Source: Candidatus Poribacteria bacterium (lineage in GTDB: Bacteria > Poribacteria > WGA-4E > WGA-3G). From it: 64,000 bases of DNA. The stretch spans positions 1-64,000 of the forward strand of contig JAPPES010000158.1 of NCBI GenBank assembly GCA_028824125.1, in the 5' to 3' direction. Under the pieces are notes generated by a model. It was not told where the DNA came from and did no database searches. It worked only from the letters and a program-made list of their open reading frames with translations. Position numbers and translations under genes: made by a program. Positions within the stretch are counted from its first letter, which is position 1, and each line of letters begins with the position of its first letter. Positions 28,836-44,930 of this stretch are shown one piece after another.

Positions 28836-29190
28836 CAACGAAACTTTCACTTGATGTTGCTTGCTCTTGTGCCTTGAGAAATTTATACATCTCAACGAGC
28901 GTTTCTTTATTTTTTTCTGTAAGTGTCATCATTCCCCTCAGCATGACACTTACCGCTGGATCCGCCAATAAGTCTTCAAAACCCAGATCCTTTTTACCAA
29001 GCAGGTAATCTGTTGACACCTTCAGGGCATCAGACAGATTGGAAAGCGTTTTAAAAGAGGGTTTTCGGCTACCCGACTCAAATTGAGAAATAGCCGCAGG
29101 CGTTAGATTCGCTTCTTTTGCTAATTCAGTTTGTGTCATTTTTAGTTCACGTCGACGTTTTTTTATTCGTGAGGTAACTTTTTCACTCAT
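28825..29190 (-). CDS. XRE-family helix-turn-helix transcriptional regulator
   Basis: The 121-residue product has an N-terminal Cro/CI-type HTH (RIKKRRRELKMTQTELAKEA, TPAAISQFESGSRKPSFKTL, LSDALKVSTDYLLG) and a 45-residue helical tail. It is the expected target of the ImmA-like peptidase encoded next to it and likely represses its own operon. GAAAGGAATTACTT precedes the ATG. The upstream region is very AT-rich (29191-29330) and could hold operators, but I could not fix one. Confidence 0.93.
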   Translation of the reverse strand: MSEKVTSRIKKRRRELKMTQTELAKEANLTPAAISQFESGSRKPSFKTLSNLSDALKVSTDYLLGKKDLGFEDLLADPAVSVMLRGMMTLTEKNKETLVEMYKFLKAQEQATSSESFVDAE

Positions 29191-30146: not shown

Positions 30147-33100
30147 ATGAGAATTCGAAATTATAGTATAGTCTATTTATTAGTTTTTTGGGGTTGCGTT
30201 TCATTCGGTTATGCAGCAGAAGGCGGTAAAAAATTAGGGTTGTCGGAGGCGGCAATCCAAATTCGGGATGAGATATCTATCCGCAACATTCGGAAAGATA
30301 TCGCCCGTTTATCAAGTCTGGAAAGCCGCGTGACTGGCTATCCGCAAGCGGCAAACGGCAGTAAATATATTTTTGACCGTTTTGTTGATATGGGGTTGAA
30401 GAATGTTGAAAGTCGTGAATTTACTGTCACAGTTCCCGTTGATCACGGTAATAGTGCTATTGACATCCTATCCGATGATGGCAGCGTGCTACACACATTC
30501 CTACTCAAACCGTTGTGGCCAAACCTTGTCCGAACATCCCTGCTTGCTGATGGTGTAAAACATACCGTTGAAGCTGGCGAAACCCTTGAAGAAATTGCAG
30601 AAAACTATGCGGTTTCCCTAACAGCCATTGCTGAAAATCCACACAATCAATATTTACCCACACCTCTTGTGGAGGGGAACACGGTTTTCGTCCCGACTGG
30701 CGGTCTTACCGGTCCCCTATTTTACGGAGACGATGCCCAACTTTCAGATTTCAACGGAAGTAAAGTCGGCGGCTTTTGGTACAGACTCCAAGAAGGTGAT
30801 ACACTCGCTTCACTGGCAAGACGTTATCGCGTTACAAAAGCGAGTATAACCGATGATGTACTCAACGGACATCTGCAGAAAGCCTCCGATGGCATTGATA
30901 ACAATGAGGATGGCGTTATTGATGAATACGGTGAAATTCCGCTTTTATCGGAAATTCTCGGATGGGCAACAGATGGCATTGACAATAATGCTGATGGTTG
31001 GACTGATGAAATTCCCGGCGATGCCACAGACGGCATTGATAACAATAAAGACGGTCAGATTGACGAAACCGGTGAATTCATCGCGGCAAGCGAATCTGAT
31101 ATTTTTATCCCGAAAGGCGCAATCGTTCTTACAGAATTTAACTCTGGCACCCGATGGATTAACGCGGCGATGCTTGGGGCATCCGCAGTTATTTTTATAG
31201 AACCGGAAACAACAATTCGCGGTGAAGCAGAAAACAAATTCCTCACTGTGCCAGCAAACATTCCCCGATTTTGGATTTCTAATACAGATGCTGCCCAATT
31301 AAAAGGATTCCTTGATACGGGTGAAGAGGTCAATGTTCGCTTGCGCGGTAAAATGACTTGGGAACGGCGCGTCGGTCAAAACATTCGCGGCTTCTTAGAG
31401 GGTGGTGATCCTGTCCTACGCGATGAATTGGTCGTCCTTACCGCGTACTACGATTCTATGTCTGTTGTTCCAGCAATCGCTCCTGGTGCTGACCCAACCT
31501 GTGGGATTGCCGTCCTCATGGAACTTGCACGTTTGTTCGGACAAGCAGAATATCGTCCCGGTCGTTCAGTCCTATTTGTTGCTGTTGACGCACATTTCCA
31601 AGGCTTAGCTGGCATGCGTGCGTTTATGGAAGGTATTGGACAAGATATTGTTGGTTCAGCAACCGATTCACCAGGAACACCCACTTTGCACGGATTGAGG
31701 CGCGGATTATCTAATGATATTATCGAATTTGAGGAATTAGGACGCAAACTGTTGCTTTCCATTGATCGAAGTATTTTGGTGGACTTAGATGCAGATTTCT
31801 ACCACGGCGTTCACGGTGTAAAGGAAGACCTGAAATCACTTGCAACAACGTTGACGGGGCTCTCTACAACACGGTCTCAAATTGATTGGTTACACAGAGC
31901 GCAACGCGATTTCTCAGAACGCCAGAAAAGACAGGTAGATCGCAACCGCAAACGCGAAAAACAGGGATTCACAGAGGAAGAAAAATCGAGACTAAATGCC
32001 AACCTTGTCCGCTTTGAAAAAGAAGCATTGCAAACTACGCATTTTCTCCGCCAGATTGTTGAACGGCTTGCGCAGATTCAGAAATCCGCTCTGAAAACGA
32101 GTAAGGATTCCCAGCGAGAACTCATTGAAACCATTGCTTTGCCCATTGCACGGTTGGACACATGGGCAGTGGATAGACTTATGCGAGAGCTTGACTCAGG
32201 TGAGATAGCTGATCAATACGGCACACATCCGAATGCATCATATCTGTTCCCTGTCAAGAACGGCTCCGATTATGAAGTGCCAACACCTGACGATCTGCCG
32301 CCAGAATTGTCCGCTGAAATTGAACAGTTGAATAAGACCCTTGCCAATTGGGAGATGAGCGACTCACGGAAGTTTGCTTTAATGTGGACACCTGATAAGG
32401 TCCTTGATCGTCATTTAGATTTGCCGACTCTCAGAAAAGCGCGCGCTGCGCGAAAAACCCTCGCAAATACCACTGAATCCAAGGAAGATGCGATATTACG
32501 AGAGCGAGACCTTTTGGAAAAAATAAAGGAAAATCTCAAGGACACCGCTTCCATTGAAAGTCAAATTAAAGATGCCATTACAAAATTGAGCAGTGATCGT
32601 GAGCATGATCTTCCAGATGAAGTATTAAAGCAATATCTAACTGAAGAATCACAAGAACGGATAAACAGAATTGATGATCAACTCCGGCAACGTTTGACCG
32701 AAGCAGTCTCAGCGTCTGTTGCAGGCGAAGGCGGAGACGGTTCGTCCACATCCATCCTAATTGAAGATTTGACACGCGATAAACAAGGTATTTTTGAAAT
32801 TGCGCTGCGGAATGCCCGTTTAGAACAGGCGCGCATCCAGTATCTTCTTGATTTCCATGAAACCCTCACCCGTGAGTTTCTTGATGAGGAGTTATTAATT
32901 CTGAACAGTTATCTATCGGATGATGAAGTTGAACAAGTAAAAGAGGCACGCAAACATGTTGCAGCGTATCTGGTTGAGGCTGAAATCTTGCAGGCAGTCA
33001 AACAGAACGCGGCTTCGGATGTGATCGCCCTTGAAAATCTAATCAAGCAACTCCCTTCACTAACAAGGGATATAGACGCACAGACAAAGGTGCTTCTCCG

Positions 33101-36100
33101 TGATAATATGCTCACCTTGAGGAATGCGAGATTCCGAAACATTCAGAGCAGGGTTGAGAAGATGTCACGCATAAGCGAGATAGAATATAATCGCAAGCTC
33201 ACACAGATTGAAGCCGCAGTTGCGCTACAAGACCTTTTCAATCGGTATTATACATCGCTTTTCTGTAGTATTGATCTTTCCTCTCAATCGAATCAATTCG
33301 GCGTATTTAACAAAGGTTGGTTTTATGACCAACAACCGGAATTTGTGTTGCGACGTGAGTTCGCGAGTATCGGCAATAAACTTGCTGCCTATGCTGCGGA
33401 TGCTGATTTCGGAGTACGTGTTAGAAAATTATGGCGGGCAACGGACGATCAAATTCGCCAAGCAGTGATGGCACGTCAGTGGTCAGTAGCAAGCCAAATC
33501 TCCGATAAAGCTGACCTTGAAGGGAAAACGCTTGAAACTCTTCTCAGCGCACATTATGGGAAGCTCACAGGTTTAGGTGGGGTAAGTCGTCTCATGAGGA
33601 TGCAGTTTGAACAGTGGCGAAACCGGGGCGAACCGTCTGAAGATATGCTCAAAGATATGGACTATATCCGCAAGGAAGTTGAGCGGTTTATTCGCAACGA
33701 TGTGCGTAGCGCAAAGAAAAACCGAAAAAACAGTATCCGCATGCGCGAACAGTTAGACGCCATGCTCAGACTCCGACACGAAGACCCCGATACATTCACA
33801 GAAGATGAGATAGAGGATATCAAAACATTAATCTCAATTGTCGGATTGGGTGGCGGTTCCAACTTTGTCAACGCAATTTCCGCAAGTGGTGGCAAAACTT
33901 GGAAAACCTATATTCCGGGGAAAATCGCCTTTGACAGTGAAGTTGCAACGCTTGTAGGCAAAACAGGTATCGCCTTTGCAACGATTGAAGATGCGCGCGT
34001 CCTTACCGACACACCACTTGATACGATTGAACGTGTTGACCTACGTGAAGATGGTAATCTACATCAACAAGCGAAAACATTAGCATCTCTACTGATACAG
34101 GCACTACGGGACCCACAGATGCCCACTGCAGCACGCGTTGGGAACTTCTACTGTAACCTTTTCGGTGATGTGGTTGAATTTGATGCACGTGAATCTGCGT
34201 TACCAAATAAACCCGTGCCATACCCGATTGTAACACTTCGTCGTAGACATAAAACGATGATGGGGGTACGCGGTGATCTATTTGCCATGGGAGATAATAA
34301 AGGCAATTTTGAAGTTGCAGGCTTGGCAATGGAAGGCAGGGCAACTCGCAGGCTTGGTGGTGCACAGGAAGTTGAGGCATACATCCTTGACCCCGATTCT
34401 GGGGATATTGTCTATGCACCCGATTTGGGAAATTACGGTGCGAAATTGCTACCAAATAAAGTGCCGATTAACACACGGCGACGCGGATGTCGAGTTGTTA
34501 CCTTCCCGTGTGTATCCACAACTATCTATGACTTGGTTGACCAACGCTATCTCCGAACCTTACGCGAATTAGAGGTATATGATGCGCTGTCCGATAGCCC
34601 ACCTGAAAAATTCGGCGTGTCTAAACCGTGGCAACAGGAAGGTGTTTCTGCCGCTGAACCTATCGCACTTGTCTATAGCGAACCGCAAAGCCGTATAAAA
34701 ATCGGAATGGCGTACGGGCAAATCGGTAAACGTCTACTCCTGATTAAAGCGACCAAAAGCGGTATGAAAAACCCAACGCTTTACACTGGCGAAGGGTTTG
34801 TTGTGCGAGAAAACGGCAGTATCCGTCTTACCCCTTATGTGGTTGTACGTGATATGTGGTGGCTTGATGAAAACCGATCTCGTCTTTACAAACGGTTCGG
34901 TATTTCAAGTGACCGTCTTGATAAATTGCATCAATTTGCCAATGAATATCTCTCACGAGCAGAAACTGCGCTTTTCCAAAACGACTATCAACAAGCTCTC
35001 AAGTTGGCGCGCGCTGCATGGGGATACGAATCACGCGCGTATCCAGATGTTAAAAGAACAGGCAACGATGTCGTTAACGGTATTATGTTCTATCTTGCAC
35101 TTCTGATGCCGTTTGCATACTTTATGGAACGTCTTATATTCGGTTTCCCGAACATCCACAAACAGATTTTAGCCACTTTCGGTATTTTCCTCCTCGTCTT
35201 TTACTTCTTAAGTCAGGTTCATCCTGCATTCCAAATAACAACAACACCTATAATTATCTTAATCGCATTCGTTGTGCTTGCGTTGACAGTGCTTGTCATC
35301 AGTATTATTGTTAGGAAATTTGAGGAACAACTTGAAAAGATTCGTCAACAAGGCAATAAGGTGTATAAGGCAGATGTCGGTAGGTTAAGCGCAAGTGCTG
35401 CGGCATTTAGTCTCGGTATCTCCAATATGCGGAAACGGAAAGGGCGGACCATTCTGACCTGCGCAACACTTGTTATCCTTACGTTCACTGTTATTTCGTT
35501 CACATCAGTACGGACATTTATGCGTCCGAACCGAACCAGTTTACCACAGGTTACACCGCGTTATACAGGTTTGCTCATCCGAGACCAGTATTGGCGCCCG
35601 CTTGAAGAACCTGTCCTTAACTCAATTCTAAATGACATGCAGAAGACGCAAGTTACTGTAGACGATTTAGAACGACTTCTGGCACAGAAAAATCTACTCC
35701 TGGCTAAGCGAGGGCAAACACCGCTGGATATACCAGCAGCAATAGCAGGATTACAGGAAAATGGGTTTATCACAAACATTGACGAGGAACCAGTTCTTGC
35801 CGTTCGAAATGTTGTGGCACCACGCGCATGGTATCAGTCTTCAGGAACAGGTGACCAATCCTTTGTACAACTGACACGGAGTCCAAATGCACAGGATCCG
35901 GTACCGCCGACACATCCACTCACAGGTGAAGCGTTGCGTTTCGCCGCAAACATGCTTGTCGGCATGAGTGAGACAGAGCCCGCAGTCACGGGTATTGATC
36001 GCTACCTCCAATACGGAAAATGGTTTAACCGCGCCGATGCTGCCAATTGGCCAACTGAATGGCCTTATGCTATTGTGCTTCCCAAGGGAATGGCGGATCT

Positions 36101-37433
36101 CCTCAAACTAACCGAAAGTGATATGGGGAAAGCCACAATCTCTGTATACGGTGCTGACTTCACCGTCGTCGGTGTTTTGGGAATAGGATTCAAGGATTTG
36201 ACTGATAACGATGGCGAAGAAATGACACCTGTCGACTATCAATTAATGCAACAGCAACAAAGTCGTGGTGGCACAGGCGATGAAACGCTTGAGGGAGAAT
36301 TACAAAAATATCTCCATCTCACGCCAGATAGTATTGCTGTTTTACCTTATGAAGTTGTCATGAACCAAGGTGGAACACTTAGAAGCGTTGCAGTTAACAT
36401 GGAACCTCAAGAAGATGATCCAGAACTGCTTGGGGCAATTGATAAACTTGATCTTATCATGGCACCACTGATGAACCGCATTGCGCTTGACTTTTTTGTC
36501 GGTCGCGACAAAGATACCTACCTTTATAGCAGTATCGGTATGACAAGTTTTAGCGGGATGGGTAACCTATTCGTGCCAATCCTGATTGCTGCGTTGATTG
36601 TTTTGAATACGATGCTCGGTGCGGTTTATGAACGTGTGCGTGAAATCAGTATCTACAGTTCTGTGGGACTTGCTCCTATTCACATCGCTTTCCTCTTCCT
36701 CGCCGAAGCCTGCGTATATGCGATTGTTGGGGCTGTTTTAGGGTACCTGACGGGACAAGTGATCGCAACAACGTTGGTGCATTTCGGTTGGCTTGCTGGT
36801 TTAACGCTCAACTATTCTTCAATGTCTACCGTTGTAGCAACGGTTATTGTGATGATTGTGGTGCTGCTCAGCACGCTGTACCCTGCTATTAAAGCCTCGC
36901 GCATGGCAGTGCCAGATATTGAACGGAAATGGAAGTTGCCTGAACCTGAAGGTGATGTGTGGCATTTTAATCTGCCTTTTACCGTCTTGGCGGAAGAAGC
37001 ACTCGGTTTGAACGTCTTTATGCGCGATTATTTTGATGCACATGCTGATGAATCTGCCAGCGATTTCTATACGGACAATGTTACTTTCAGCACAAAACCC
37101 GAAGAGGATTCTTACGAGATAGGAATGATGGTCTGGTTAGCACCTTACGATTTGGGCGTAAGTCAATCTATCCAGTTTATTACCTCGCCCGTTGGCGGAG
37201 AAGAGGAAGACCTATACAAAATCACGTTAGATGTGAACCGCGAAAGCGGGGAGATTGCGTCCTGGAAACGGGTTAATCGTCGTTTTCTTAATCTGTTGCG
37301 AAAGCAGCTGCTGATATGGCGAACCTTCAGCGTTGATGTTCGTTCTGAATTCCATGAACGTGGCAGAACCGAAAGCACGGATACGGAGGAAGGCACTGCA
37401 CGATTGGATCCCGTCGTAGCACCAGCTGATTAA
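30147..37433 (+). CDS. Giant exported LysM / pseudo-M28 peptidase / FtsX-type permease fusion
   Basis: The 2428-residue product has a signal segment (residues 5-24) and two LysM-like modules (about 136-186, HTVEAGETLEEIAENYAV, and 210-240, LQEGDTLASLARRYRV). Three DGIDNNxDGxxDE calcium-type loops (about 246-306) and an M28-peptidase-like domain (about 310-560) follow. A long charged coiled-coil region (about 570-1020), an unassigned domain and three close helices (about 1645-1720) come next. The C-terminal part is MacB/FtsX-like: a helix near 1770, a large extracytoplasmic domain, then three helices (about 2139-2250, FSGMGNLFVPILIAALIVLN, YERVREISIYSSVGL). The M28 part reads AYYDS where the metal His is expected and VDAHFQGL where the catalytic Glu pair is expected, so it is probably inactive. 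It is the obvious permease partner of the ATPase at 42151. Confidence 0.88.
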   Translation: MRIRNYSIVYLLVFWGCVSFGYAAEGGKKLGLSEAAIQIRDEISIRNIRKDIARLSSLESRVTGYPQAANGSKYIFDRFVDMGLKNVESREFTVTVPVDHGNSAIDILSDDGSVLHTFLLKPLWPNLVRTSLLADGVKHTVEAGETLEEIAENYAVSLTAIAENPHNQYLPTPLVEGNTVFVPTGGLTGPLFYGDDAQLSDFNGSKVGGFWYRLQEGDTLASLARRYRVTKASITDDVLNGHLQKASDGIDNNEDGVIDEYGEIPLLSEILGWATDGIDNNADGWTDEIPGDATDGIDNNKDGQIDETGEFIAASESDIFIPKGAIVLTEFNSGTRWINAAMLGASAVIFIEPETTIRGEAENKFLTVPANIPRFWISNTDAAQLKGFLDTGEEVNVRLRGKMTWERRVGQNIRGFLEGGDPVLRDELVVLTAYYDSMSVVPAIAPGADPTCGIAVLMELARLFGQAEYRPGRSVLFVAVDAHFQGLAGMRAFMEGIGQDIVGSATDSPGTPTLHGLRRGLSNDIIEFEELGRKLLLSIDRSILVDLDADFYHGVHGVKEDLKSLATTLTGLSTTRSQIDWLHRAQRDFSERQKRQVDRNRKREKQGFTEEEKSRLNANLVRFEKEALQTTHFLRQIVERLAQIQKSALKTSKDSQRELIETIALPIARLDTWAVDRLMRELDSGEIADQYGTHPNASYLFPVKNGSDYEVPTPDDLPPELSAEIEQLNKTLANWEMSDSRKFALMWTPDKVLDRHLDLPTLRKARAARKTLANTTESKEDAILRERDLLEKIKENLKDTASIESQIKDAITKLSSDREHDLPDEVLKQYLTEESQERINRIDDQLRQRLTEAVSASVAGEGGDGSSTSILIEDLTRDKQGIFEIALRNARLEQARIQYLLDFHETLTREFLDEELLILNSYLSDDEVEQVKEARKHVAAYLVEAEILQAVKQNAASDVIALENLIKQLPSLTRDIDAQTKVLLRDNMLTLRNARFRNIQSRVEKMSRISEIEYNRKLTQIEAAVALQDLFNRYYTSLFCSIDLSSQSNQFGVFNKGWFYDQQPEFVLRREFASIGNKLAAYAADADFGVRVRKLWRATDDQIRQAVMARQWSVASQISDKADLEGKTLETLLSAHYGKLTGLGGVSRLMRMQFEQWRNRGEPSEDMLKDMDYIRKEVERFIRNDVRSAKKNRKNSIRMREQLDAMLRLRHEDPDTFTEDEIEDIKTLISIVGLGGGSNFVNAISASGGKTWKTYIPGKIAFDSEVATLVGKTGIAFATIEDARVLTDTPLDTIERVDLREDGNLHQQAKTLASLLIQALRDPQMPTAARVGNFYCNLFGDVVEFDARESALPNKPVPYPIVTLRRRHKTMMGVRGDLFAMGDNKGNFEVAGLAMEGRATRRLGGAQEVEAYILDPDSGDIVYAPDLGNYGAKLLPNKVPINTRRRGCRVVTFPCVSTTIYDLVDQRYLRTLRELEVYDALSDSPPEKFGVSKPWQQEGVSAAEPIALVYSEPQSRIKIGMAYGQIGKRLLLIKATKSGMKNPTLYTGEGFVVRENGSIRLTPYVVVRDMWWLDENRSRLYKRFGISSDRLDKLHQFANEYLSRAETALFQNDYQQALKLARAAWGYESRAYPDVKRTGNDVVNGIMFYLALLMPFAYFMERLIFGFPNIHKQILATFGIFLLVFYFLSQVHPAFQITTTPIIILIAFVVLALTVLVISIIVRKFEEQLEKIRQQGNKVYKADVGRLSASAAAFSLGISNMRKRKGRTILTCATLVILTFTVISFTSVRTFMRPNRTSLPQVTPRYTGLLIRDQYWRPLEEPVLNSILNDMQKTQVTVDDLERLLAQKNLLLAKRGQTPLDIPAAIAGLQENGFITNIDEEPVLAVRNVVAPRAWYQSSGTGDQSFVQLTRSPNAQDPVPPTHPLTGEALRFAANMLVGMSETEPAVTGIDRYLQYGKWFNRADAANWPTEWPYAIVLPKGMADLLKLTESDMGKATISVYGADFTVVGVLGIGFKDLTDNDGEEMTPVDYQLMQQQQSRGGTGDETLEGELQKYLHLTPDSIAVLPYEVVMNQGGTLRSVAVNMEPQEDDPELLGAIDKLDLIMAPLMNRIALDFFVGRDKDTYLYSSIGMTSFSGMGNLFVPILIAALIVLNTMLGAVYERVREISIYSSVGLAPIHIAFLFLAEACVYAIVGAVLGYLTGQVIATTLVHFGWLAGLTLNYSSMSTVVATVIVMIVVLLSTLYPAIKASRMAVPDIERKWKLPEPEGDVWHFNLPFTVLAEEALGLNVFMRDYFDAHADESASDFYTDNVTFSTKPEEDSYEIGMMVWLAPYDLGVSQSIQFITSPVGGEEEDLYKITLDVNRESGEIASWKRVNRRFLNLLRKQLLIWRTFSVDVRSEFHERGRTESTDTEEGTARLDPVVAPAD

Positions 37434-37466
37434 GGAGATGGAATCTAACTAAACAAGGAATTGTAT

Positions 37467-37658
37467 ATGGAAAAATTAGCAAGTGTTATCATCATCATTG
37501 GGACTGCCTTCTGGTTCGTCAGCGTTCTGTTCTTAGGGGGACGTTGGCAGTGGCAGATGTTGGCAGCACTTATATTAACTATCGGAATTTTCATCGCGCA
37601 TTTTTGGGAAGAGCTCAGCGAAGGAAAGAACAAAAATACACCGAAAGATGATAATTGA
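37467..37658 (+). CDS. Small two-helix membrane protein
   Basis: The 63-residue product has two hydrophobic segments (about residues 4-24 and 31-48) and a Lys/Asp-rich tail. AAGGA seven bases before the ATG at 37467 fixes the start; a TTG two codons earlier is less well placed. It begins 33 bp after the giant permease gene and is probably co-transcribed. It may be an accessory subunit of that permease, but this is inference from position and size only. Confidence 0.7.
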   Translation: MEKLASVIIIIGTAFWFVSVLFLGGRWQWQMLAALILTIGIFIAHFWEELSEGKNKNTPKDDN

Positions 37659-37696
37659 ATAGTATTCGGTTCTTAGTATCTGTGGCATGCACATTA

Positions 37697-37843
37697 TAGT
37701 GAAATCTAAAATTACTTGGACAGTTCTTTAGAGGTTTGATGCGTTTGTAGTCGCGCAATTCATTGCGCCTCTTACATTGAACGGTAGGCGAGGTTTCCTA
37801 ACCTCGCTGGCGTAGAGTGTAAAAGTAATTTCAAAATCTACTA
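37697..37843. mobile_element. TA-flanked MITE carrying two palindromic modules
   Basis: The 147-bp element runs from TAGTGAAATCTAAAATTACT to TTTCAAAATCTACTA and is flanked by TA on both sides. It carries the GTCGCGCAATTCATTGCGCC palindrome (about 37750-37770) and a core hairpin with GCGAGG/CCTCGC stem (about 37787-37807). It separates the small membrane protein from the transporter gene. Confidence 0.8.
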
Positions 37844-37918
37844 TAATTCGCGACAGCAAAGTTACTTACTGATTGCTGACAGCTGAAAACCGAATGCTAA
37901 CATAAAGGAGAACATTAA

Positions 37919-39907
37919 TTGGCGAGAGAGAGAATCTCACAAGCAGATGAATGGCAAACGTGGGCACAACGCTACGACATAGAAGGCGGCATCCGAACCT
38001 TTGAATCCGGATTAACCGGCAAAGTGTTCTTCGGCGCACTCTTTGTTGGGTTGCTCATGATGCCCGGTTCCATCTATCTGAGCTATGTATCTGGTCAATC
38101 CGGTGCAGCGGCTGCCCCTTGGGTTGCAGTTATCCTGTTTACCGAATTAGCCCGACGTTCCTTCACCACGGCACGCCGTCAAGAACTCTATATGCTGCTG
38201 AGCCTCACAGGCGCAGCAGTCGGCAGCGGTATGCAATATCGGAGTTTTATTTGGTATGCATATTTTGTAAACACACCGCAAGCCATCTCTTATGAAATTG
38301 CTGATAAAATCCCCGCATGGGTCGTGCCAGCAGGTGATTCGGCAGGAGTGTTGACGCGGAGTCTGCTGCATCCCGATTGGTTGTTGCCCATAGGTATCTA
38401 CCTTGCAGGAAAGTTACTTGGCACGCTACGTGTTGTCAGCGGTCAGTATATTCTCTTTAGACTTACTGCCGACCTTGAACGACTTCCCTATCCGATGGCA
38501 CCGATTACTGCACAAGGGGCAACTGCTTTAGCAGAGACGACCGGTAAACAGGAAACATGGCGATGGCAAGTATTTTCTATCGGGTCTATGGCGGGCTTAA
38601 TATGGGGATTCATCTATATCGGTATTCCTGCGCTTACTGGCGTGATGATGAGTCAACCGATACAAATACTAAAGATACCGTGGATAGACTTTACGCAAAG
38701 CATTGAGGGATTCGCGCCGACAGGGGTCTTTGCACTCCGAACAGACTTCGGACAGATGCTCTTCGGATTTGTCTTGCCGTTCCCTGTGGTGATGTCGGAG
38801 TTTGTCACCGCGATGCTATCGCAATTTGTTCTCAATCCGCAAATCCTTTACAGAAACGAGATATTGCATCAATGGGAACCTGGGCTTGATGTACGTGCAA
38901 CTGGACTTTTCAACGATCTCGATTTCTGGCGGAGTTACGGCATAGGTAAAACGTTTAGCCTCGGTCTTGTTGGCATGGCAGCCTCTGTGCCAATGCTTTT
39001 CAAACTTCGCAGCTCTAAGAAAAAGGCGGGGGAACGTGGTTCACTTGCCACGCCACCGAATCGTGGTGATTTTCCGCTATGGCTTATGGGGATACTATGG
39101 CTTATCGGTATGGGCGGATTTGTTTGGCTCATCCATTGGATGGTACCAAATTTCCCACTGAGTTTCTTACTTGGGTTCGCGTTCTTATATACGCCGATTA
39201 ATTCATATATCACCGCAAGGACGTTCGGTGTGCTCGGGCGAGACTTATTTGAAATACCTTACTTGCATGAGATCACCTTTATTCTCAGTCGGTACGAGGA
39301 GATTGATATCTGGTTTGCCCCGCTACCTGACGAAGATTACGGAGCAGGCACACAAGGATGGCGCGTGCTTGAATTGACAGGAACAACTTTTACATCAAAC
39401 CTTGCTGCGACACTACTGATTATGCCTATCTTGATTATCAGTGGAATTGTGGTGCAGCACTTTATCTGGCAAATTGCCCCGATACCGAGCGCGCAATATC
39501 CGTTTGTTCAGATGATGTGGCCGATTAACGCAACAAATGAATGTCTTATGAAAACATCACTGCGCGATGGGAACAGTGAGATTATACAAGCCATTCGGGG
39601 TGATTATGTTGCTGCAGGATTTACCTCCAGCCTTGCTATCTATGGGCTGCTTTGGGTGTTTAAATACCCATCCATGTGGTTTTACGGTATCATCGGTGGA
39701 ATTGGGGCTGACCCGGGCAGCATGGTTGCACGGTTGCTTGGTGCTATCATCGGTAGATTCTATATGATTAAGCGGTTCGGTTTGAAACGTTGGTTTATGT
39801 TCAATCCGGTGTTGGCGGCTGGCTTTGCTTGTGGCGTAGGTTTGATCGGAATGGGGACCGTTGCAGTTGCCCTTGTCTCTAAAGCGGTTATTGTTAAACC
39901 GTTTTAG
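37919..39907 (+). CDS. OPT-like oligopeptide transporter family membrane protein
   Basis: The 662-residue protein has about 13-15 hydrophobic segments and a conserved-looking LERLPYPMAPITAQGATALA segment after a membrane helix (about residues 185-205). This is typical of the OPT (oligopeptide/YSL) superfamily and its prokaryotic relatives. GIGADPGSMVARLLGAIIGR near residue 600 fits the repeated OPT core. The product would be a secondary transporter for peptides or metal-chelate complexes in the inner membrane. AAAGGAG lies ten bases before the TTG start. Its position between the FtsX-type permease and PqqD-like genes suggests a shared peptide-related role. Family assignment is probable, not certain. 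Confidence 0.7.
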   Translation: MARERISQADEWQTWAQRYDIEGGIRTFESGLTGKVFFGALFVGLLMMPGSIYLSYVSGQSGAAAAPWVAVILFTELARRSFTTARRQELYMLLSLTGAAVGSGMQYRSFIWYAYFVNTPQAISYEIADKIPAWVVPAGDSAGVLTRSLLHPDWLLPIGIYLAGKLLGTLRVVSGQYILFRLTADLERLPYPMAPITAQGATALAETTGKQETWRWQVFSIGSMAGLIWGFIYIGIPALTGVMMSQPIQILKIPWIDFTQSIEGFAPTGVFALRTDFGQMLFGFVLPFPVVMSEFVTAMLSQFVLNPQILYRNEILHQWEPGLDVRATGLFNDLDFWRSYGIGKTFSLGLVGMAASVPMLFKLRSSKKKAGERGSLATPPNRGDFPLWLMGILWLIGMGGFVWLIHWMVPNFPLSFLLGFAFLYTPINSYITARTFGVLGRDLFEIPYLHEITFILSRYEEIDIWFAPLPDEDYGAGTQGWRVLELTGTTFTSNLAATLLIMPILIISGIVVQHFIWQIAPIPSAQYPFVQMMWPINATNECLMKTSLRDGNSEIIQAIRGDYVAAGFTSSLAIYGLLWVFKYPSMWFYGIIGGIGADPGSMVARLLGAIIGRFYMIKRFGLKRWFMFNPVLAAGFACGVGLIGMGTVAVALVSKAVIVKPF

Positions 39908-39936
39908 GCAAAGTTCTTGTCTGGTGGAAAAGAGAT

Positions 39937-40884
39937 ATGGACTGGAATCTTTTTGGTTGGGCAGGGATTCAGTTAGAGATTCCGACAACTTGGGAAATCA
40001 GCGGCATCAGTGGTGATGAGAAGAATGGCTACCTCCGTTTAGATGACGCAGAGATGCCTCGCTTAGAACTCAAATGGGCAAAAACACGGAAGAAGAAACC
40101 CGACCTACACAAAACACTTGACGAATACTTTAAGTTAGTCCGTAAAAACTATAAACGTGGTGGCAATGTATCGTTTCGTAGGAACGTTGACCTTATCAAA
40201 GATGAGGATTTCTTAAAGGGGCACACAGTGCTTGGGTTCAGCTGGAAAGGAGGCATCCGCGCAAACGGGTTGATTGTGCATAGTCCTGATACTAAACGGA
40301 TTACCATTGTCCAAGTCATGGGGAGGCTTAAAGAGAATTGGCGTCCTACGGTGCTTCGCATCTTTCAATCTATTTCGGACCAAGAAGACCTAAAGCACAC
40401 CGTTTGGAGTGCGTATGGCCTTAGACTTGCTGTTCCGAAAAACTACAAGTTAGAAAGGCAAAAACTTCTTAGCGGATATCTGTTGTTTACATTTGCCAGA
40501 GGGAAAAGTCGTAAACTTAGCGTTGAACGTTACGGGCCTGCGGAGGTGCTATTAAACGAATTTACGGCAGAACCGAATCCGTTAGAGACCTGGTTTCGGG
40601 CACGCTACGCAAAAGCGATTCGGGGTTATGGGTTTGAAGTAACACCGCACGAAGAGCACGGAGACGAACACATAAATTTTGTCGGACAGCAGACACGGCT
40701 TTACGACAGTATGCCGTTTTCACCTTTGTTGGCACTTGATAAACTCCGAAAACGGGTAAGACTTACGTTTTTTATTTGGCACTGCCATCGGACCAACCGT
40801 ATCTATGTAGTGCAATCAATCGGACGTCACGAGACATCTGAGAAACTTGCACAAGAGGTTGCAAAGAGTATACATTGCCACTAA
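39937..40884 (+). CDS. Two-repeat soluble protein of unknown function
   Basis: The 315-residue product has no signal or membrane segment and seems to contain two copies of a domain of about 150 residues. The first (residues 8-150) has AGIQLEIPTTWEI, RLELKWAKT, DEYFKLVRKNYKR, KRITIVQVMGRL and LRIFQSISD. The second (residues 158-315) has YGLRLAVPKNYKL, LFTFARGKSRKLSVERYG, ETWFRARYAKAIRGYGF, NRIYVVQSIGR and EEVAKSI-like ends. The layout recalls a beta-sheet lipid- or peptide-binding fold, but no family is recognised. GGAAAAGAG precedes the ATG, 30 bp after the OPT-like gene. It is probably part of the same operon as that gene and the PqqD-like gene. Confidence 0.75.
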   Translation: MDWNLFGWAGIQLEIPTTWEISGISGDEKNGYLRLDDAEMPRLELKWAKTRKKKPDLHKTLDEYFKLVRKNYKRGGNVSFRRNVDLIKDEDFLKGHTVLGFSWKGGIRANGLIVHSPDTKRITIVQVMGRLKENWRPTVLRIFQSISDQEDLKHTVWSAYGLRLAVPKNYKLERQKLLSGYLLFTFARGKSRKLSVERYGPAEVLLNEFTAEPNPLETWFRARYAKAIRGYGFEVTPHEEHGDEHINFVGQQTRLYDSMPFSPLLALDKLRKRVRLTFFIWHCHRTNRIYVVQSIGRHETSEKLAQEVAKSIHCH

Positions 40885-40956
40885 ATTTAGGATTGATGAA
40901 CACGAAGATTTGATAACACTCCTTCACTAATCTACACATCAAGGGAGATTAAAACC

Positions 40957-41178
40957 ATAGCTGAGTCAATTATTGAACAGGGCAAAAGACAAGCACTAAC
41001 ACAAGCGAAACAGGATGCAGTTATTATACTGCTGGAGTTTCGATTCCAGGATATTTCAGAAGAAATTTCTAAAAAAATCTCTTCTATCAATAGTATCTCA
41101 AATCTTGATGCCCTTTATGAGAAAGCAACTACCGTACAGACACTTGACGAAATTGATTGGCAAAATTATAATGAATGA
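40957..41178 (+). pseudogene. C-terminal remnant of an Rpn-family (PD-(D/E)XK nuclease/transposase-like) protein, ATA in start position
   Basis: The 73-codon open frame reads AESIIEQGKRQALTQAKQDA, then VIILLEFRFQDISEEI and NLDALYEKATTVQTLDEIDW before TGA. This is the C-terminal tail typical of Rpn/PD-(D/E)XK family proteins. A good ribosome site AAGGGAG lies at normal spacing, but the codon in start position is ATA and no ATG, GTG or TTG occurs in frame. Either an ATG decayed to ATA or this is a truncated relic. The nuclease domain is absent. The rest of 40885-41218 holds nothing else. Confidence 0.6.
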
Positions 41179-41218
41179 TACCAAATTAATCTAAAGTATG
41201 TCCAGACACTACTAAAAT

Positions 41219-41683
41219 ATGCTCAACAAAATTCTATACACACTTAAACTAAAAAAACGACCCGATGTAGATAGAAGTAAAGTCCTCAAAGCATTCCCGT
41301 TACGCAATCAGCTGATAACGTGGGAAATGGACGACAAAGGTGAGGCATCGCTCGTTATTCCGCAAAAAGACAAATTCTGGGTGAAACTGACAAGTAAACT
41401 CTTTATGCTCCCCGATAAACGCGTCGTTGTGCTGGACAGCATGGGTGCGTACGTATGGCAAATGTGTGATGGGAAACACACTATTTCACAGATTATCAAG
41501 GCTCTTCAAAAAAAACATCAATTGACTCGAAAAGAGGCGGAAACTTCGCTTTTTACTTTTGTCCAGCAACTTGGAAAACGAAATTTTATCCAATTTGCTA
41601 TTCCGACTGAAGCTAAACCGAATGAAGCAGCAACACAGAAACCGGCACAACAGAAACGTTTCGGATTTTTATCTAAAGGATAA
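41219..41683 (+). CDS. PqqD-like protein (RRE-type peptide-binding fold)
   Basis: The 154-residue product has a central PqqD-type winged-helix domain: VVVLDSMGAYVWQMCDGKHT, ISQIIKALQKKHQL and AETSLFTFVQQLGKRNFIQF. PqqD-like domains bind leader peptides of ribosomally made peptides and hand them to modifying enzymes. Here an 80-residue basic N-terminal part precedes it, and a Lys/Gln/Pro tail (about residues 130-154) follows. No radical SAM enzyme or precursor gene is visible nearby. It lies between the OPT-like transporter and the ABC ATPase, suggesting a peptide-sensing or scaffold role in that system. No strong ribosome site is visible. Confidence 0.85.
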   Translation: MLNKILYTLKLKKRPDVDRSKVLKAFPLRNQLITWEMDDKGEASLVIPQKDKFWVKLTSKLFMLPDKRVVVLDSMGAYVWQMCDGKHTISQIIKALQKKHQLTRKEAETSLFTFVQQLGKRNFIQFAIPTEAKPNEAATQKPAQQKRFGFLSKG

Positions 41684-41695
41684 GTGATGCTTTTA

Positions 41696-42095
41696 TAGTG
41701 AAATCTATAATTACTTGCACACAATTGTAGCGCAAACTTTTTGAAGTTTAAATAAATATTTCGGTAATTTCTTTAGTCCCATAGGGACGATATGTTTATA
41801 GAAAAACGAAATAAATCCTTCTCTTGAGTTCCGTAGGAACGATATGTGGATACCAATGACAAGTCCATAAACATTGCGTCCCTACGGGACTAAAGAGGTG
41901 AGTTGAACATAATTCTATAAACATTGCGTCCCTACGGGACTGAAGAAGGTTTCCATGTTTAGAAAATCCTAAAATTGAGACCTATGGTTCGGTTTCCTAA
42001 CCGCACACTTAGCAAGACGGATCACGTTAATTGAGTATAACAAGTTCAGGGTTTTTTGGTTAAGAAATCGCGACCAGGAGGTCGCTCCTACAGCG
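41696..42095. repeat. Repeat cluster: terminal repeat, ATGAAG-type end and four GTCCCGTAGGGAC units
   Basis: TAGTGAAATCTATAATTACT at 41696 is a left terminal repeat. TGAAGTTTAAATAAATATTT at 41743 is an ATGAAG-type end. Four copies of a unit of about 30 bp with the palindrome GTCCC(A/G)TAGGGAC and CGATATGTTTATAG lie at 41772, 41825, 41866 and 41921; the last two are inverted. A core-type GGTTTCCTAACC remnant lies at 41993, and ATCGCGACCAGGAGGTCGCT at 42067. No gene is supported in 41684-42150. Confidence 0.75.
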
Positions 42096-42150
42096 GAAAC
42101 CGATAGCCGATGGCTGACTGCCGAAAGCCAATGAAAAGGAGAAAACAGAT

Positions 42151-42957
42151 ATGCAAGCAGAAATAGGCGGCGTACAACCGAATCTCGCTGAAACGCCAGA
42201 ACGATTCCAGCGCCTTATTCCGAAAGAGAACACCGTCCGAGTCAGAAACCTCATTAAACGGTATGAAATGGGGACAACGACTGTGGATGCACTACGCGGT
42301 GTCAATTTCCAAATTCAACGCGGCGAATATATCTCTATTATGGGTCCCTCTGGCTCTGGAAAATCTACGCTTTTTAATATGATTGGCGGGTTAGACAAAC
42401 CCACCGAGGGCAGAGTCTATATTGACGAAGTAGACATTGCGCAACTTGACGCTTATGAGTTAGCGTGGTTGCGTTGTCGGAAAATCGGTTATATCTTTCA
42501 ATCGTTCAATCTTATCCCCGTTATGACAGCGCTTGAAAACGTCTCGCTCCCGATGATTTTTGCTGGCATGAGTGCCGATGAGAGTAGGGAAAAAGGGGTT
42601 GATTTACTCTCCCTTGTGGGATTAGGTGACCGCGTCCAACATAAACCGCTTGAACTCTCTGGTGGACAACAGCAGCGTGTTGCAATTGCTCGTTCTCTCG
42701 CTAACGACCCCGCCATTGTCTTGGCAGATGAACCGACAGGTAACTTGGATACCAAAACAGGCCTTGAAATCATTGATTTACTCCGCCGCCTCAATGATGA
42801 AAACGGTGTGACCATTATCACCGCGACACACGACCACAAAATGCTTGATGTATCAGACAGGATTTTCCACATGGTAGACGGCAAAGTTGACAAAATTGAG
42901 TCACGCGATGAAATTGATCTGCATGTCGGAAAATTGGACGGCCAGGAAGTCGGATAA
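42151..42957 (+). CDS. ABC transporter ATP-binding protein (LolD/MacB/FtsE type)
   Basis: The 268-residue ATPase has Walker A GPSGSGKST (about residue 68), a Q-loop in YIFQSFNLIPVMTALENV, signature LSGGQQQR (about 170), Walker B VLADEPTGNLD and the switch His in ITATHD. The sequence around ELAWLRCRKIGYIFQ is typical of the LolD/MacB/FtsE group that powers FtsX-type permeases. About 25 unmatched residues precede the domain. The most likely partner is the FtsX-type C-terminus of the 2428-residue protein at 30147; no other permease is in the window. AAAAGGAG lies nine bases before the ATG. A SelA-like gene follows after 8 bp. Confidence 0.93.
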   Translation: MQAEIGGVQPNLAETPERFQRLIPKENTVRVRNLIKRYEMGTTTVDALRGVNFQIQRGEYISIMGPSGSGKSTLFNMIGGLDKPTEGRVYIDEVDIAQLDAYELAWLRCRKIGYIFQSFNLIPVMTALENVSLPMIFAGMSADESREKGVDLLSLVGLGDRVQHKPLELSGGQQQRVAIARSLANDPAIVLADEPTGNLDTKTGLEIIDLLRRLNDENGVTIITATHDHKMLDVSDRIFHMVDGKVDKIESRDEIDLHVGKLDGQEVG

Positions 42958-42965
42958 ACTTCTCA

Positions 42966-44084
42966 ATGTCAATTTACAAACGTTTAGGCATTCGAACAGT
43001 TATCAACGGCAACGCAACGCTAACACGTCTCGGTGGTTCCATCATGCCACCCGAAGTGGTTGATGCAATGGTTGAGGCATCAAAGCATTTTGTTGACATC
43101 ATTGAACTGCAAAAACGAGTTGGCGAAGAATTAGCAAAACTTACCCATAACGAAGCAGCGTACGTCTCTAACGGTGCTGCAGCTGCCCTGACGCTTAGTA
43201 CTGCCGCCTGTATCACTGGACTTGATGCAAGCAAACGTGCAAAATTACCCCATCTTGACAACGCAATGAAAAGCGAAGTTATCGTGCATCGCCACGGCAG
43301 AGTCGGATACGATTTTGCTGTGCGGCAAGTCGGTGTAACATTCGTAGAGATAGGTGACGAAAACGGCACAACACCTGACGAACTTGAAAACGCTATCACC
43401 GACAAGACCGCTGCAATCTTTTACTTCGCCAATCCCAGCAGAGAACATCTTTGGGTTTCTTACGAAAAAGGTATTGAAATTGCTAAAAAACACGGTGTCC
43501 CATTGATAGTTGATGCTGCTGCACAGTTGCCACCGCCAGAAAACTTATGGAGCTTTACAGAGATGGGGGCAGATTTGGCAATGTTTAGCGGAGGAAAAGG
43601 GTTATGTGGTCCGCAAAGTAGTGGACTAATCGTTGGTAAAAAATCGCTGATTGAGGCTATAGCGCTTAATGGACCGCCCCATCCCTTCATCGGCAGAGGT
43701 ATGAAAGTTGGCAAAGAAGAGATGGTTGGGTTGCTGGCAGCGGTTGAGTGGTATCTGAATCAAGACCACGCACAATTAATGCAATCCTACGAAGATCAAG
43801 TTGCTTTTTATACAGAGGTTTTTAAAGATATCCAAGGTGTTAGTGTACATCGTAGTTTCCCATCTGAAGCGGGGCAACCGATGCCACGCACCGAAATCCG
43901 ATTTGATGCAGATCAACTCGGTATTACACGTGATGAAATTCTCCATCAACTACAAATAGGTGAACCTTCGATAGATATTGCTGGCGCAGGTGCGAACGGC
44001 GTACTTATCAATGGACAAACCTTGATGCCGGGAGAAATAGAAATTATTGCTAAAAGATTAAAGGAGATTCTACTTGGAATGTAA
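42966..44084 (+). CDS. PLP-dependent SelA-like enzyme
   Basis: The 372-residue fold-type I PLP enzyme resembles the SelA family: RTVINGNATLTRLGGSIMPP at the N-terminus, AAYVSNGAAAALTLSTAACI for cofactor phosphate binding, PLIVDAAAQLPPPENLW with the PLP-pyridine Asp, and the Schiff-base Lys in FSGGKGLCGPQSSGL (about residue 209). Most members outside true selenocysteine synthase act on sugar-acid or amino-acid substrates, for example D-glucosaminate-6-phosphate ammonia-lyase. The exact reaction cannot be assigned here, and no selB or tRNA-Sec is nearby. It starts 8 bp after the ABC ATPase, so they share a transcript. The two genes together are enclosed by inverted terminal repeats at 41696 and 44166. 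Confidence 0.85.
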   Translation: MSIYKRLGIRTVINGNATLTRLGGSIMPPEVVDAMVEASKHFVDIIELQKRVGEELAKLTHNEAAYVSNGAAAALTLSTAACITGLDASKRAKLPHLDNAMKSEVIVHRHGRVGYDFAVRQVGVTFVEIGDENGTTPDELENAITDKTAAIFYFANPSREHLWVSYEKGIEIAKKHGVPLIVDAAAQLPPPENLWSFTEMGADLAMFSGGKGLCGPQSSGLIVGKKSLIEAIALNGPPHPFIGRGMKVGKEEMVGLLAAVEWYLNQDHAQLMQSYEDQVAFYTEVFKDIQGVSVHRSFPSEAGQPMPRTEIRFDADQLGITRDEILHQLQIGEPSIDIAGAGANGVLINGQTLMPGEIEIIAKRLKEILLGM

Positions 44085-44111
44085 CGCAAGGCCTCTAATC
44101 CAGACAAGCTC

Positions 44112-44166
44112 TCGCTGGCGAGGTTTCCTAACCTCGCCAATGTCCAGGTAATTGTGGATTTTACTA
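44112..44166. repeat. Core hairpin plus right terminal repeat
   Basis: A core hairpin with GGCGAGG/CCTCGCC stem (about 44116-44137) is followed by GGTAATTGTGGATTTTACTA ending at 44166 before TA. The outward-facing partner end is at 41696. Confidence 0.7.
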
Positions 44167-44219
44167 TAAGGATACATTTAGATCAGTTATTATACACCAT
44201 AAATAATTAGGAAACATAA

Positions 44220-44930
44220 ATGAAACTTAACAACGGTATAAGCCTAACGTGGCTCGGACATGCCACCTTTAAAATTGAAGTAGACGGAAAAACCCTCTTA
44301 ATTGACCCTTGGGTTGATAGCAACCCTGTTTGCCCCGATAAACTCAAAACCTTTGATAGCCTTGACGTTATGCTGATAACGCATGGACATTGGGATCACA
44401 TGGCAGATGCTGCCTCAATTGCAAAAAAACACGCTCCCACAGTGGTCGCTATGATTGAAATAGCAAAATGGTTGGAGAATCAAGGTGTTGACAACACAAT
44501 TGGCATGAATAAAGGGGGTACGGTTACAGTCGGTGGCGTAAAAGCAACGATGGTCACGGCAAATCATAGCAGTAGTTTCACAGAAGAAGATGGAACGATA
44601 GTCTATTTAGGCGAACCTGCGGGTTTTGTGCTTGAATTTGCAAACGGCTATAAAATATATCATGCTGGGGATACAAATGTGTTTGGGGATATGAAAATCA
44701 TCGGAGAGATATATCAACCTGACTTAGCACTGCTTCCTATCGGTGACCATTTCACAATGGGACCGCGTGAGGCAGCTTATGCCGTCCAATTGCTCAATGT
44801 GCCAACAATTTTGCCCATGCACTACGGTACATTTCCGCTGTTGACAGGAACGCCGGAAGAATTCCGAAAATTAACAGCATCTCAAAATGTAGAAATTGTT
44901 GAATTAGAGGTTGGAGACACCTTAGATTAA
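44220..44930 (+). CDS. UPF0173-type metal-dependent hydrolase (metallo-beta-lactamase fold)
   Basis: The 236-residue product has the metallo-beta-lactamase fold: WLGHATFKIEVDGKTLLIDP at the N-terminus, the metal motif THGHWDHMADA (about residue 58), TANHSSSF, YHAGDTNVFGDM with the bridging Asp (about 153) and LPMHYGTFPLL (about 202). It matches the YtkL-like UPF0173 family, whose substrate is not established. The ATG at 44220 is preceded by an AT-rich stretch with AGGAAACATAA. The gene stands alone, followed at once by its own terminator. Confidence 0.93.
   Translation: MKLNNGISLTWLGHATFKIEVDGKTLLIDPWVDSNPVCPDKLKTFDSLDVMLITHGHWDHMADAASIAKKHAPTVVAMIEIAKWLENQGVDNTIGMNKGGTVTVGGVKATMVTANHSSSFTEEDGTIVYLGEPAGFVLEFANGYKIYHAGDTNVFGDMKIIGEIYQPDLALLPIGDHFTMGPREAAYAVQLLNVPTILPMHYGTFPLLTGTPEEFRKLTASQNVEIVELEVGDTLD

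Follow-up and report, generated by a model that had tools for sequence, protein, structure and literature searches.

Do six neighbouring genes of a poribacterium form one envelope system, and if so, what might that system do? The genes lie on a 64,000-nucleotide stretch of contig JAPPES010000158.1 from a Candidatus Poribacteria bacterium (GCA_028824125.1, positions 1 to 64,000, forward strand; hereafter the window), and encode, in order, a giant FtsX-type permease (GIANT), a two-helix protein (TM2), an OPT-like membrane protein (OPT), a protein of two repeats (REP2), a PqqD-like protein, and a LolD/MacB-type ABC ATPase (ATP1). The original prediction, which was made from the sequence of the window, had described them as a candidate peptide-handling transport system of previously undescribed composition. 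The open reading frames (ORFs) confirm the location and order given there for all six genes, which lie on the plus strand (Table 1), and comparison with other genomes establishes that the genes are conserved as a set and did not come to stand in a row by chance.

The presence of the genes was surveyed in 59 genomes of the window's class, its own genome included, which represent 19 genera and eight families. GIANT is strongly matched, whole or in fragments, in 56/59 of these genomes, OPT in 56/59, REP2 in 55/59, and both the PqqD-like gene and the ATP1 ortholog in 54/59. An ATPase match at 1e-85 occurs in 58/59 genomes, and G005, G006, G041, and G058 show only a ∼60% identical paralog. None of the five genes (GIANT, OPT, REP2, PqqD, and ATP1) was found in G005, G006, or G041, and two or three of them are missing from G052 and G058, the assemblies of which are 79% and 61% complete, respectively. 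Across the whole phylum, OPT is present in 81/84 Poribacteria genomes, and GIANT also occurs in both genomes outside the window's class, in pieces at contig ends.

Gene order is conserved along with gene content, as far as each contig shows. In a first set of loci, all 23 main Poribacteria loci follow one order: 12 read GIANT-TM2-OPT-REP2-PqqD-ATPase, three have tandem OPT genes, five lack TM2, and three are shorter fragments (extra GIANT copies in L026 and L027, which stand without the other genes, were left out). In a second set of 54 named records plus L054, the genomes of which partly overlap with the first, the order is kept in 52/55 loci. The flanking genes, for example those encoding DgaE-like and MBL proteins, change between families, and the block therefore has edges; a chance neighbourhood was rejected because the order is kept in both sets while the flanks change. 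The neighbourhood conservation proposed as a check of the original prediction was thus found, both within Poribacteria and in other phyla. TM2, which has the two hydrophobic stretches expected of a two-helix protein, is an accessory Poribacteria addition, present in 16 of the 23 main loci and in none of the non-Poribacteria loci read alongside.

A scan of a genome collection with the OPT alignment returned at least 546 relatives, and 79 loci were kept. According to their record labels, the relatives outside Poribacteria (39-45% identity) belong to Armatimonadota, Latescibacterota, Planctomycetota, Desantisbacteria, Firmicutes UBA5435, and others, but these labels are partly unsafe: the genomes of L138 ('Bacillota') and L146 ('Actinomycetota') were placed in the same phylum as G092, which is recorded as Armatimonadota. 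The arrangement GIANT-OPT-REP2-PqqD-sFtsX-ATPase was found at 22 loci from Armatimonadota and the UBA5435 record, 21 of which are distinct (L146 is the same record as L194). It includes a second FtsX permease, sFtsX, which at ∼220 aa can hardly accommodate an ectodomain. In the six-gene loci outside Poribacteria, sFtsX stands directly before the ATPase gene, and a single ATPase gene follows both permeases; in the seven loci first compared, this ATPase is 67-73% identical to that of the window. Other layouts also occur. In Latescibacterota-type (L183-L185) and Planctomycetota (L190) loci, REP2-PqqD-sFtsX-ATPase stands apart from OPT or GIANT-OPT, in Desantisbacteria (L140) both modules are present in swapped order, and in L230 the order is sFtsX-ATPase-GIANT-OPT with REP2 further on, a layout that the positions of sFtsX and OPT in G180, G204, and G216 also fit. 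These varied arrangements imply that the genes have been reshuffled several times and yet remain together at the level of the genome.

Linkage at the level of the genome was followed in 201 Armatimonadota genomes, with OPT present in 149 (E ≤ 1e-20) and REP2 in 145 (E ≤ 1e-10). Both genes occur in 141 of these genomes, OPT only in 8, REP2 only in 4, and neither in 48 (Fisher p = 5e-33, uncorrected for shared descent and incomplete genomes). Among the matches listed, the spacing of OPT and REP2 was compared in 122 genomes: the two lie within 1.5 kb in 70, within 20 kb in 9, and apart or on different contigs in 43.

The statement in the original prediction that permease and ATPase have no other partners holds within the window, which lacks sFtsX, but not beyond it. 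In addition to the arrangement seen in other phyla, the window's own genome encodes one sFtsX, on contig C6, beside a 60% identical paralog of the ATPase (ATP2), and sFtsX directly precedes ATP2 in 13/13 Poribacteria paralog loci read, including those of G005, G006, and G041. Matches of sFtsX to PF02687 reach 1e-16 (L060) and 8e-24 (L128), and the best match of the L128 protein is lolCE, under the cut-off (63.1 of 362.45 bits). In a profile search of 33 chosen genomes, 26 have a single strong sFtsX match and G084 has three partial matches; OPT is present in all 27 of these genomes and REP2 in 26 (the exception is G259). The six genomes without a strong sFtsX all lack REP2, with OPT present in G101 and G164 and absent from G107, G116, G129, and G134. 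We regard sFtsX as the probable missing partner of the window's permease and ATPase. Pairing of the ATPase with a different conserved permease, which had been named as grounds for abandoning the prediction, was therefore half found: sFtsX is an added partner, not a replacement.

The ATPase itself is of the LolD/MacB type, with Walker A and B, signature, Q-loop, and H-loop motifs. ATP1 matches the Pfam ABC_tran family at 6e-35, and Walker A, signature, and Walker B are kept in 67/67 aligned rows, some of which are the same record. Its best NCBIfam match, LolD, is under the cut-off (236.9 vs. 307.75 bits), as is the match to the MacB equivalog (214.6 of 966 bits); ATPase and permease are separate genes here. 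An earlier ATPase tree with one ATP2 row left the origin of ATP2 undecided. In a tree with 13 ATP2 rows, ATP1 nests among the ATPases of other phyla and ATP2 branches outside the clade of ATP1 and outgroups, and a recent duplication of ATP1 within Poribacteria was rejected on this basis.

GIANT starts with a signal-peptide-like N-terminus (judged by eye), continues with a large predicted periplasmic part and three extra transmembrane stretches, and ends with an FtsX core that includes a periplasmic domain, followed by a C-terminal tail. Its Pfam matches are FtsX (8e-12), M28 (1e-8), and LysM (2e-7), and a MacB-like periplasmic domain is matched below the cut-off, in the GIANT of L128 (7e-5) as in that of the window. 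The protein is conserved over most of its length within the phylum, and the C-terminal ∼1200 aa are common to other phyla, where the FtsX core is among the best-conserved parts. In 31 rows from outside Poribacteria, little aligns with residues 121-300, which contain LysM, or with most of residues 541-1200, and these stretches therefore look like Poribacteria additions. The M28-like domain was compared with the canonical M28 metal-ligand and catalytic Glu motifs, covering the first ligand His, the bridging Asp, and the E-E of the third motif. In 54 aligned rows (one record twice), the His is kept in 1/54, the Asp in 1/54, and the third motif reads H-x, never E-E, in 54/54; judged from these residues, the domain appears to have lost its catalytic site and to be dead.

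The best family match to the permease module of GIANT is the PADLOC family 'CARF_LolE_TM' (5.9e-49 in the window, 1.3e-67 in L128), with the best stretches ending by model position 686/810 and the last ∼125 positions unmatched. The Pfam scan gave no CARF domain in GIANT, and the position of CARF within the PADLOC model was not located. Two further features of GIANT were observed. Three DGIDNN-D-G repeats (30880-31050, residues ∼245-300), acidic motifs of MopE-like type with a weak Pfam match, lie inside the LysM insertion. Close to the second, full-length GIANT copies of L026 and L027 (genomes G035 and G038), which lack the partner genes, are a DUF6785 protein and ORFs for repeat proteins that by eye look PD40/TolB-like.

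When searched against Pfam and NCBIfam, including the curated OPT and DUF6785 models, the OPT protein of the window matched no family at E ≤ 1. An AlphaFold2 model built from a 35-row alignment (predicted local distance difference test, pLDDT, 81; predicted template modelling score, pTM, 0.81) nevertheless matched barley YS1 twice in a Foldseek search of the PDB, with and without Fe(III)-deoxymugineic acid (Fe(III)-DMA), at E-values of 1e-9 (probability 1.00, TM 0.61-0.66) and 4.5e-9, with TM 0.58-0.66 over both matches; no other PDB entry was matched at E ≤ 0.001. The predicted fold is thus that of the OPT superfamily, without a sequence family, and this agrees with the OPT-like part of the original call of a peptide transporter. 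DUF6785 proteins, which in our judgement are another OPT-like family, occur near GIANT in L026, L027, L132, and L140/L192. Their positions, with those of DUF6784, are between ATPase and GIANT in Desantisbacteria (L192:4571-6592, the same record as L140), just before GIANT in L132 (2874-4874), and near REP2 in L199 (3540-5636); a literature search for DUF6785 gave no paper.

For REP2, a model with pLDDT 94 (59-row alignment) has its best structure matches in TplEi (an immunity protein) and PsbP (E-values of 1e-5 to 7e-4; PsbP 3e-5), followed by Mog1 (2e-3), and the PsbP and Mog1 matches have probability 1.00 and TMt 0.48-0.63. The model describes a tandem PsbP/Mog1-like protein, in keeping with the two repeats originally seen in it. 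Hydropathy shows no transmembrane stretch, and the protein is predicted to be cytosolic. The window protein has no match in Pfam (E ≤ 1) or NCBIfam, a Pfam run on 59 members gave no family but only scattered weak matches of one or two members, and a PDB sequence search likewise found no family. Most members carry cysteine motifs: the cysteines of a C-x2-C in the first repeat are kept in 54/59 and 51/59 members, and the residues of a C..C-H in the second in 55/59, 53/59, and 51/59. The window protein lacks the first C-x2-C pair. The PqqD-like protein matches PF05402 above the gathering score (7.6e-12; 45.8 vs. 23.4 bits), falls under the cut-off of every NCBIfam model matched, and in profile searches matches the lasso-type RiPP recognition element (RRE) TbiB1 and PqqD structures; it is longer than PqqD and has a conserved N-terminal extension.

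Taken together, we tentatively favour, at somewhat less than even confidence, a reading in which the gene products form one multi-protein inner-membrane machine, a putative complex of a heteromeric type VII ABC engine (MacB/LolCDE/FtsEX-like), an OPT transporter, and two cytosolic adaptors. The parts of this reading that were observed are the co-occurrence and mostly kept order of the genes, the two FtsX permeases, the ATPase motifs, and the OPT-like predicted fold. In type VII ABC systems, ATP moves periplasmic parts, and substrates are typically not passed across the membrane (PMC12646458). We infer that GIANT and sFtsX would form a heterodimer over an ATPase pair, in the manner of LolC/LolE, and that Poribacteria would use two diverged ATPases for this engine. 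The engine could capture an envelope ligand via the dead M28-like domain of GIANT, and its movement would load, gate, or work beside the OPT protein, which may then carry all or some of the ligand across the membrane. Loading or gating of OPT is favoured because type VII engines move periplasmic parts and the neighbouring OPT adds a membrane route. REP2 and the PqqD-like protein would act as cytosolic adaptors; PqqD folds bind peptides elsewhere, and the PqqD-like protein may therefore receive or recognise the cargo or a regulator. Ligand and direction are guesses, the first of which is the import of cell-wall peptide. A more specific version is doubtful at present. In it, the set would represent a new class of composite transporter: the heteromeric type VII ABC engine, with the dead peptidase domain as its receptor, would power or gate OPT as a secondary carrier, and PqqD-like and PsbP-like adaptors would hand over the cargo in the cytosol.

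Several observations weigh against a single machine. In Poribacteria, GIANT-TM2-OPT in L076 (G004) gives way to 10 kb of other genes, and the REP2 and PqqD-ATPase of this genome are found on other contigs; OPT stands alone in L054 (G059) and TM2-OPT in L114 (G052). No GIANT was found near the Latescibacterota OPT loci (elsewhere in those genomes was not searched). In Armatimonadota, REP2 stands without the other parts in 24 loci (some near contig ends), lies within 200 bp of a TPR protein in 22 (with HExxH in 20/22), and lies within 80 bp of a RodA-like protein in 15 (Pfam was run on two of the RodA-like proteins). In HR15 (L191:8122-10732), genes for an ABC ATPase and a CcmB-like permease come after REP2-PqqD, with overlap. 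YS1, the solved structure closest in fold to OPT, carries a metal chelate, not a plain peptide, and the association of OPT and REP2 is, as given above, uncorrected for shared descent and incomplete genomes. Furthermore, sFtsX-ATP2 is retained in G005, G006, and G041, where the GIANT cluster is missing (either lost or fallen into an assembly gap), and since ATP2 falls outside the clade of ATP1 and outgroups, sFtsX-ATP2 could be a separate transporter that works alone in Poribacteria. As an observation in its own right, the triplet of RodA-like, REP2, and TPR genes (the last mostly with HExxH) recurs in Armatimonadota (L195-L200, L202-L205, L207, L208, L213, and L230); Pfam gave nothing beyond TPR for the TPR neighbours of REP2.

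Among the alternatives, an FtsEX-like regulator of cell-wall growth, in which the engine moves the periplasmic part of GIANT and thereby switches cell-wall enzymes, with OPT recycling released peptides or being a side partner, would account for LysM in GIANT and for the RodA/FtsW-like protein within 80 bp of REP2. We consider it unlikely: LysM is a Poribacteria addition, the RodA-like gene adjoins REP2 and not the ABC parts, and no murein hydrolase was seen among the recurrent neighbours clustered, most of which were not run against Pfam. The LolD and lolCE matches, and the way in which GIANT and sFtsX would mirror LolC/LolE, fit a machine that extracts lipids or lipoproteins for the outer membrane, as an analogue of LolCDE or YbbAP. 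This seems quite unlikely, since the LolD, LolC, and LolE scores are all under the cut-offs and, to our knowledge, neither an OPT transporter nor a PqqD-like protein has a role in the Lol pathway. That the only OPT fold matches at E ≤ 0.001 are YS1 with and without Fe(III)-DMA, and that C-x2-C and C-H motifs occur in most REP2 members, would suit a system in which OPT takes up a metal chelate or a peptide resembling a siderophore, with the ABC part energising or gating this uptake. The YS1 match may instead reflect the few OPT structures in the library, and with the first C-x2-C absent from the window REP2, such uptake is improbable.

Export of a RiPP-like peptide (RiPP, ribosomally synthesized and post-translationally modified peptide), with the PqqD-like protein as leader binder, would agree with the family and profile matches of that protein. 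Where a PqqD-like protein lies close to enzymes and transporters, a RiPP cluster is suggested, although such proteins are also reported outside RiPP clusters (PMC7470986). No RiPP enzyme was found in the conserved set, for which recurrent neighbours were clustered and part of them run against Pfam (small precursor genes were not searched for), and we consider this export very improbable. Radical-SAM genes following the ATPase in L143, L214, and L217 were rejected as RiPP enzymes: they encode Radical_SAM_N2 proteins, which we take to be of a housekeeping type. It is similarly hard to credit that the set consists of two or more separate transporters with nothing in common but their neighbourhood; the modules GIANT-OPT, sFtsX-ATPase, and REP2-PqqD do separate, also in Poribacteria (L076, L054, and L114), but they are also found rejoined in several layouts, and the co-occurrence of OPT and REP2 extends to genomes in which the two lie apart. 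For the favoured machine, a peptide-handling role, as originally proposed, is plausible but unproven: the M28 site appears dead, the nearest OPT fold is that of a metal-chelate transporter, and the set holds no RiPP enzyme.

Table 1. Genes of the block and features of GIANT, in window coordinates.
Feature	Position	Strand	Description
GIANT	30147-37433	+	ORF, 2428 aa; permease
LysM best stretch, GIANT residues 212-235	30780-30851	+	Pfam; inside Poribacteria-specific insertion
M28-peptidase-like region, GIANT residues 412-495	31380-31631	+	Pfam 1e-8; catalytic positions replaced
Poribacteria-specific insertion, GIANT residues 541-1200	31767-33746	+	Alignment; shared island near 1021-1080
MacB-like periplasmic core domain, GIANT residues 1935-2038	35949-36260	+	Pfam MacB_PCD 0.003, weak, below cut-off
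FtsX permease core, GIANT residues 2143-2253	36573-36905	+	Pfam 8e-12
TM2	37467-37658	+	ORF, 63 aa; two-helix protein
OPT	37919-39907	+	ORF, 662 aa, TTG start; predicted OPT-superfamily membrane protein
REP2	39937-40884	+	ORF, 315 aa; predicted tandem PsbP/Mog1-like protein
PqqD-like	41219-41683	+	ORF, 154 aa; N-terminal extension conserved, P-x-RN motif
ATP1	42151-42957	+	ORF, 268 aa; LolD/MacB-type ABC ATPase, catalytic motifs intact

With intergenic gaps of 260, 334, and 467 bp, the spacing in the window is not operon-like throughout; in other loci, the junctions of REP2 with PqqD and of PqqD with the next gene frequently overlap. The stretches between REP2, PqqD, and ATP1 (40930-41190 and 41690-42060) hold, by eye, apparent gene debris and short repeats; at these places, the genes of many related genomes overlap or lie close together. 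Upstream of GIANT (27966-29190, minus strand), and also in L021, L030, L031, L032, and L040, lie a divergent gene for an XRE-type helix-turn-helix protein and a gene for an IrrE/ImmA-like M78 protein, a possible regulator pair; among 22 Poribacteria loci scanned, some of them short upstream, the XRE-type gene is found in 9 and the M78 gene in 5. The DgaE-like and MBL genes that follow in the window (42966-44930) were rejected as members, being downstream of the block in some relatives only. Genes of restriction-modification type are inserted in the cluster in L022 (1198-5701 and 9795-11996) and L030 (8834-10489), with Pfam matches to N6_Mtase and Methylase_S (L022) and to N6_N4_Mtase and HNH (L022 and L030), and the ORFs inserted in L039 (8005-10209) and L076 (7429-9630) have the same size and place. 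Directly after the ATPase in L055 (5177-9000; G054) are a polysaccharide-export protein (SLBB, Poly_export) and a Wzz/GNVR-type protein, which were not noticed at other loci.

If the more specific, composite version holds, ATP would power the loading of a carrier that is otherwise driven by ions, perhaps for peptides of the cell wall or envelope, in phyla that have few cultured models or none. The favoured machine, if it exists, would show how an OPT carrier can be coupled to an ABC mechanotransmission engine, and would give a non-RiPP role to a PqqD-like protein and a role to a dead M28 domain; the envelope biology of whole phyla would become testable in the few cultured Armatimonadota. The OPT protein is widespread in both Poribacteria and Armatimonadota, and yet neither the OPT nor the REP2 protein encoded in the window matches a Pfam or NCBIfam model.

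That the set has largely stayed together across several little-studied phyla points to an undescribed envelope machine. A literature search for the gene combination, mostly at the level of titles and abstract openings, gave no description, which agrees with the novelty originally claimed. Similar to type VII ABC systems (MacB, LolCDE, FtsEX, YbbAP-TesA, and BceAB), the set combines FtsX-fold permeases with a LolD/MacB-type ATPase and a periplasmic working part, and shares with them a partner protein that would define the job; it differs in that GIANT fuses the permease to an apparently dead M28-like domain and extra transmembrane stretches, in its second, minimal permease without a large ectodomain, and in the OPT, PqqD-like, and PsbP-like proteins of the same cluster. 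The permease module of GIANT is not wholly unknown, because PADLOC-DB lists the related CARF_m8 family 'CARF_LolE_TM' (PDLC01991), which presumably stems from a CARF classification; GIANT leaves the rest of that model, presumably the CARF domain, unmatched. The OPT protein shares its predicted fold with the OPT superfamily (YS1; Pfam DUF6785/DUF6784), and is set apart by its tie to an ABC system and its lack of a sequence-family match. Likewise, the PqqD-like protein resembles PqqD and RRE proteins in its PF05402, TbiB1, and PqqD matches, and departs from them in its length, its conserved N-terminal extension, and a conserved set without a RiPP enzyme. Lastly, the REP2 model resembles proteins of the PsbP/Mog1-like fold (PsbP, Mog1, DcrB, LpqN, and TplEi), from which REP2 differs as a tandem, predicted cytosolic protein without a sequence family.

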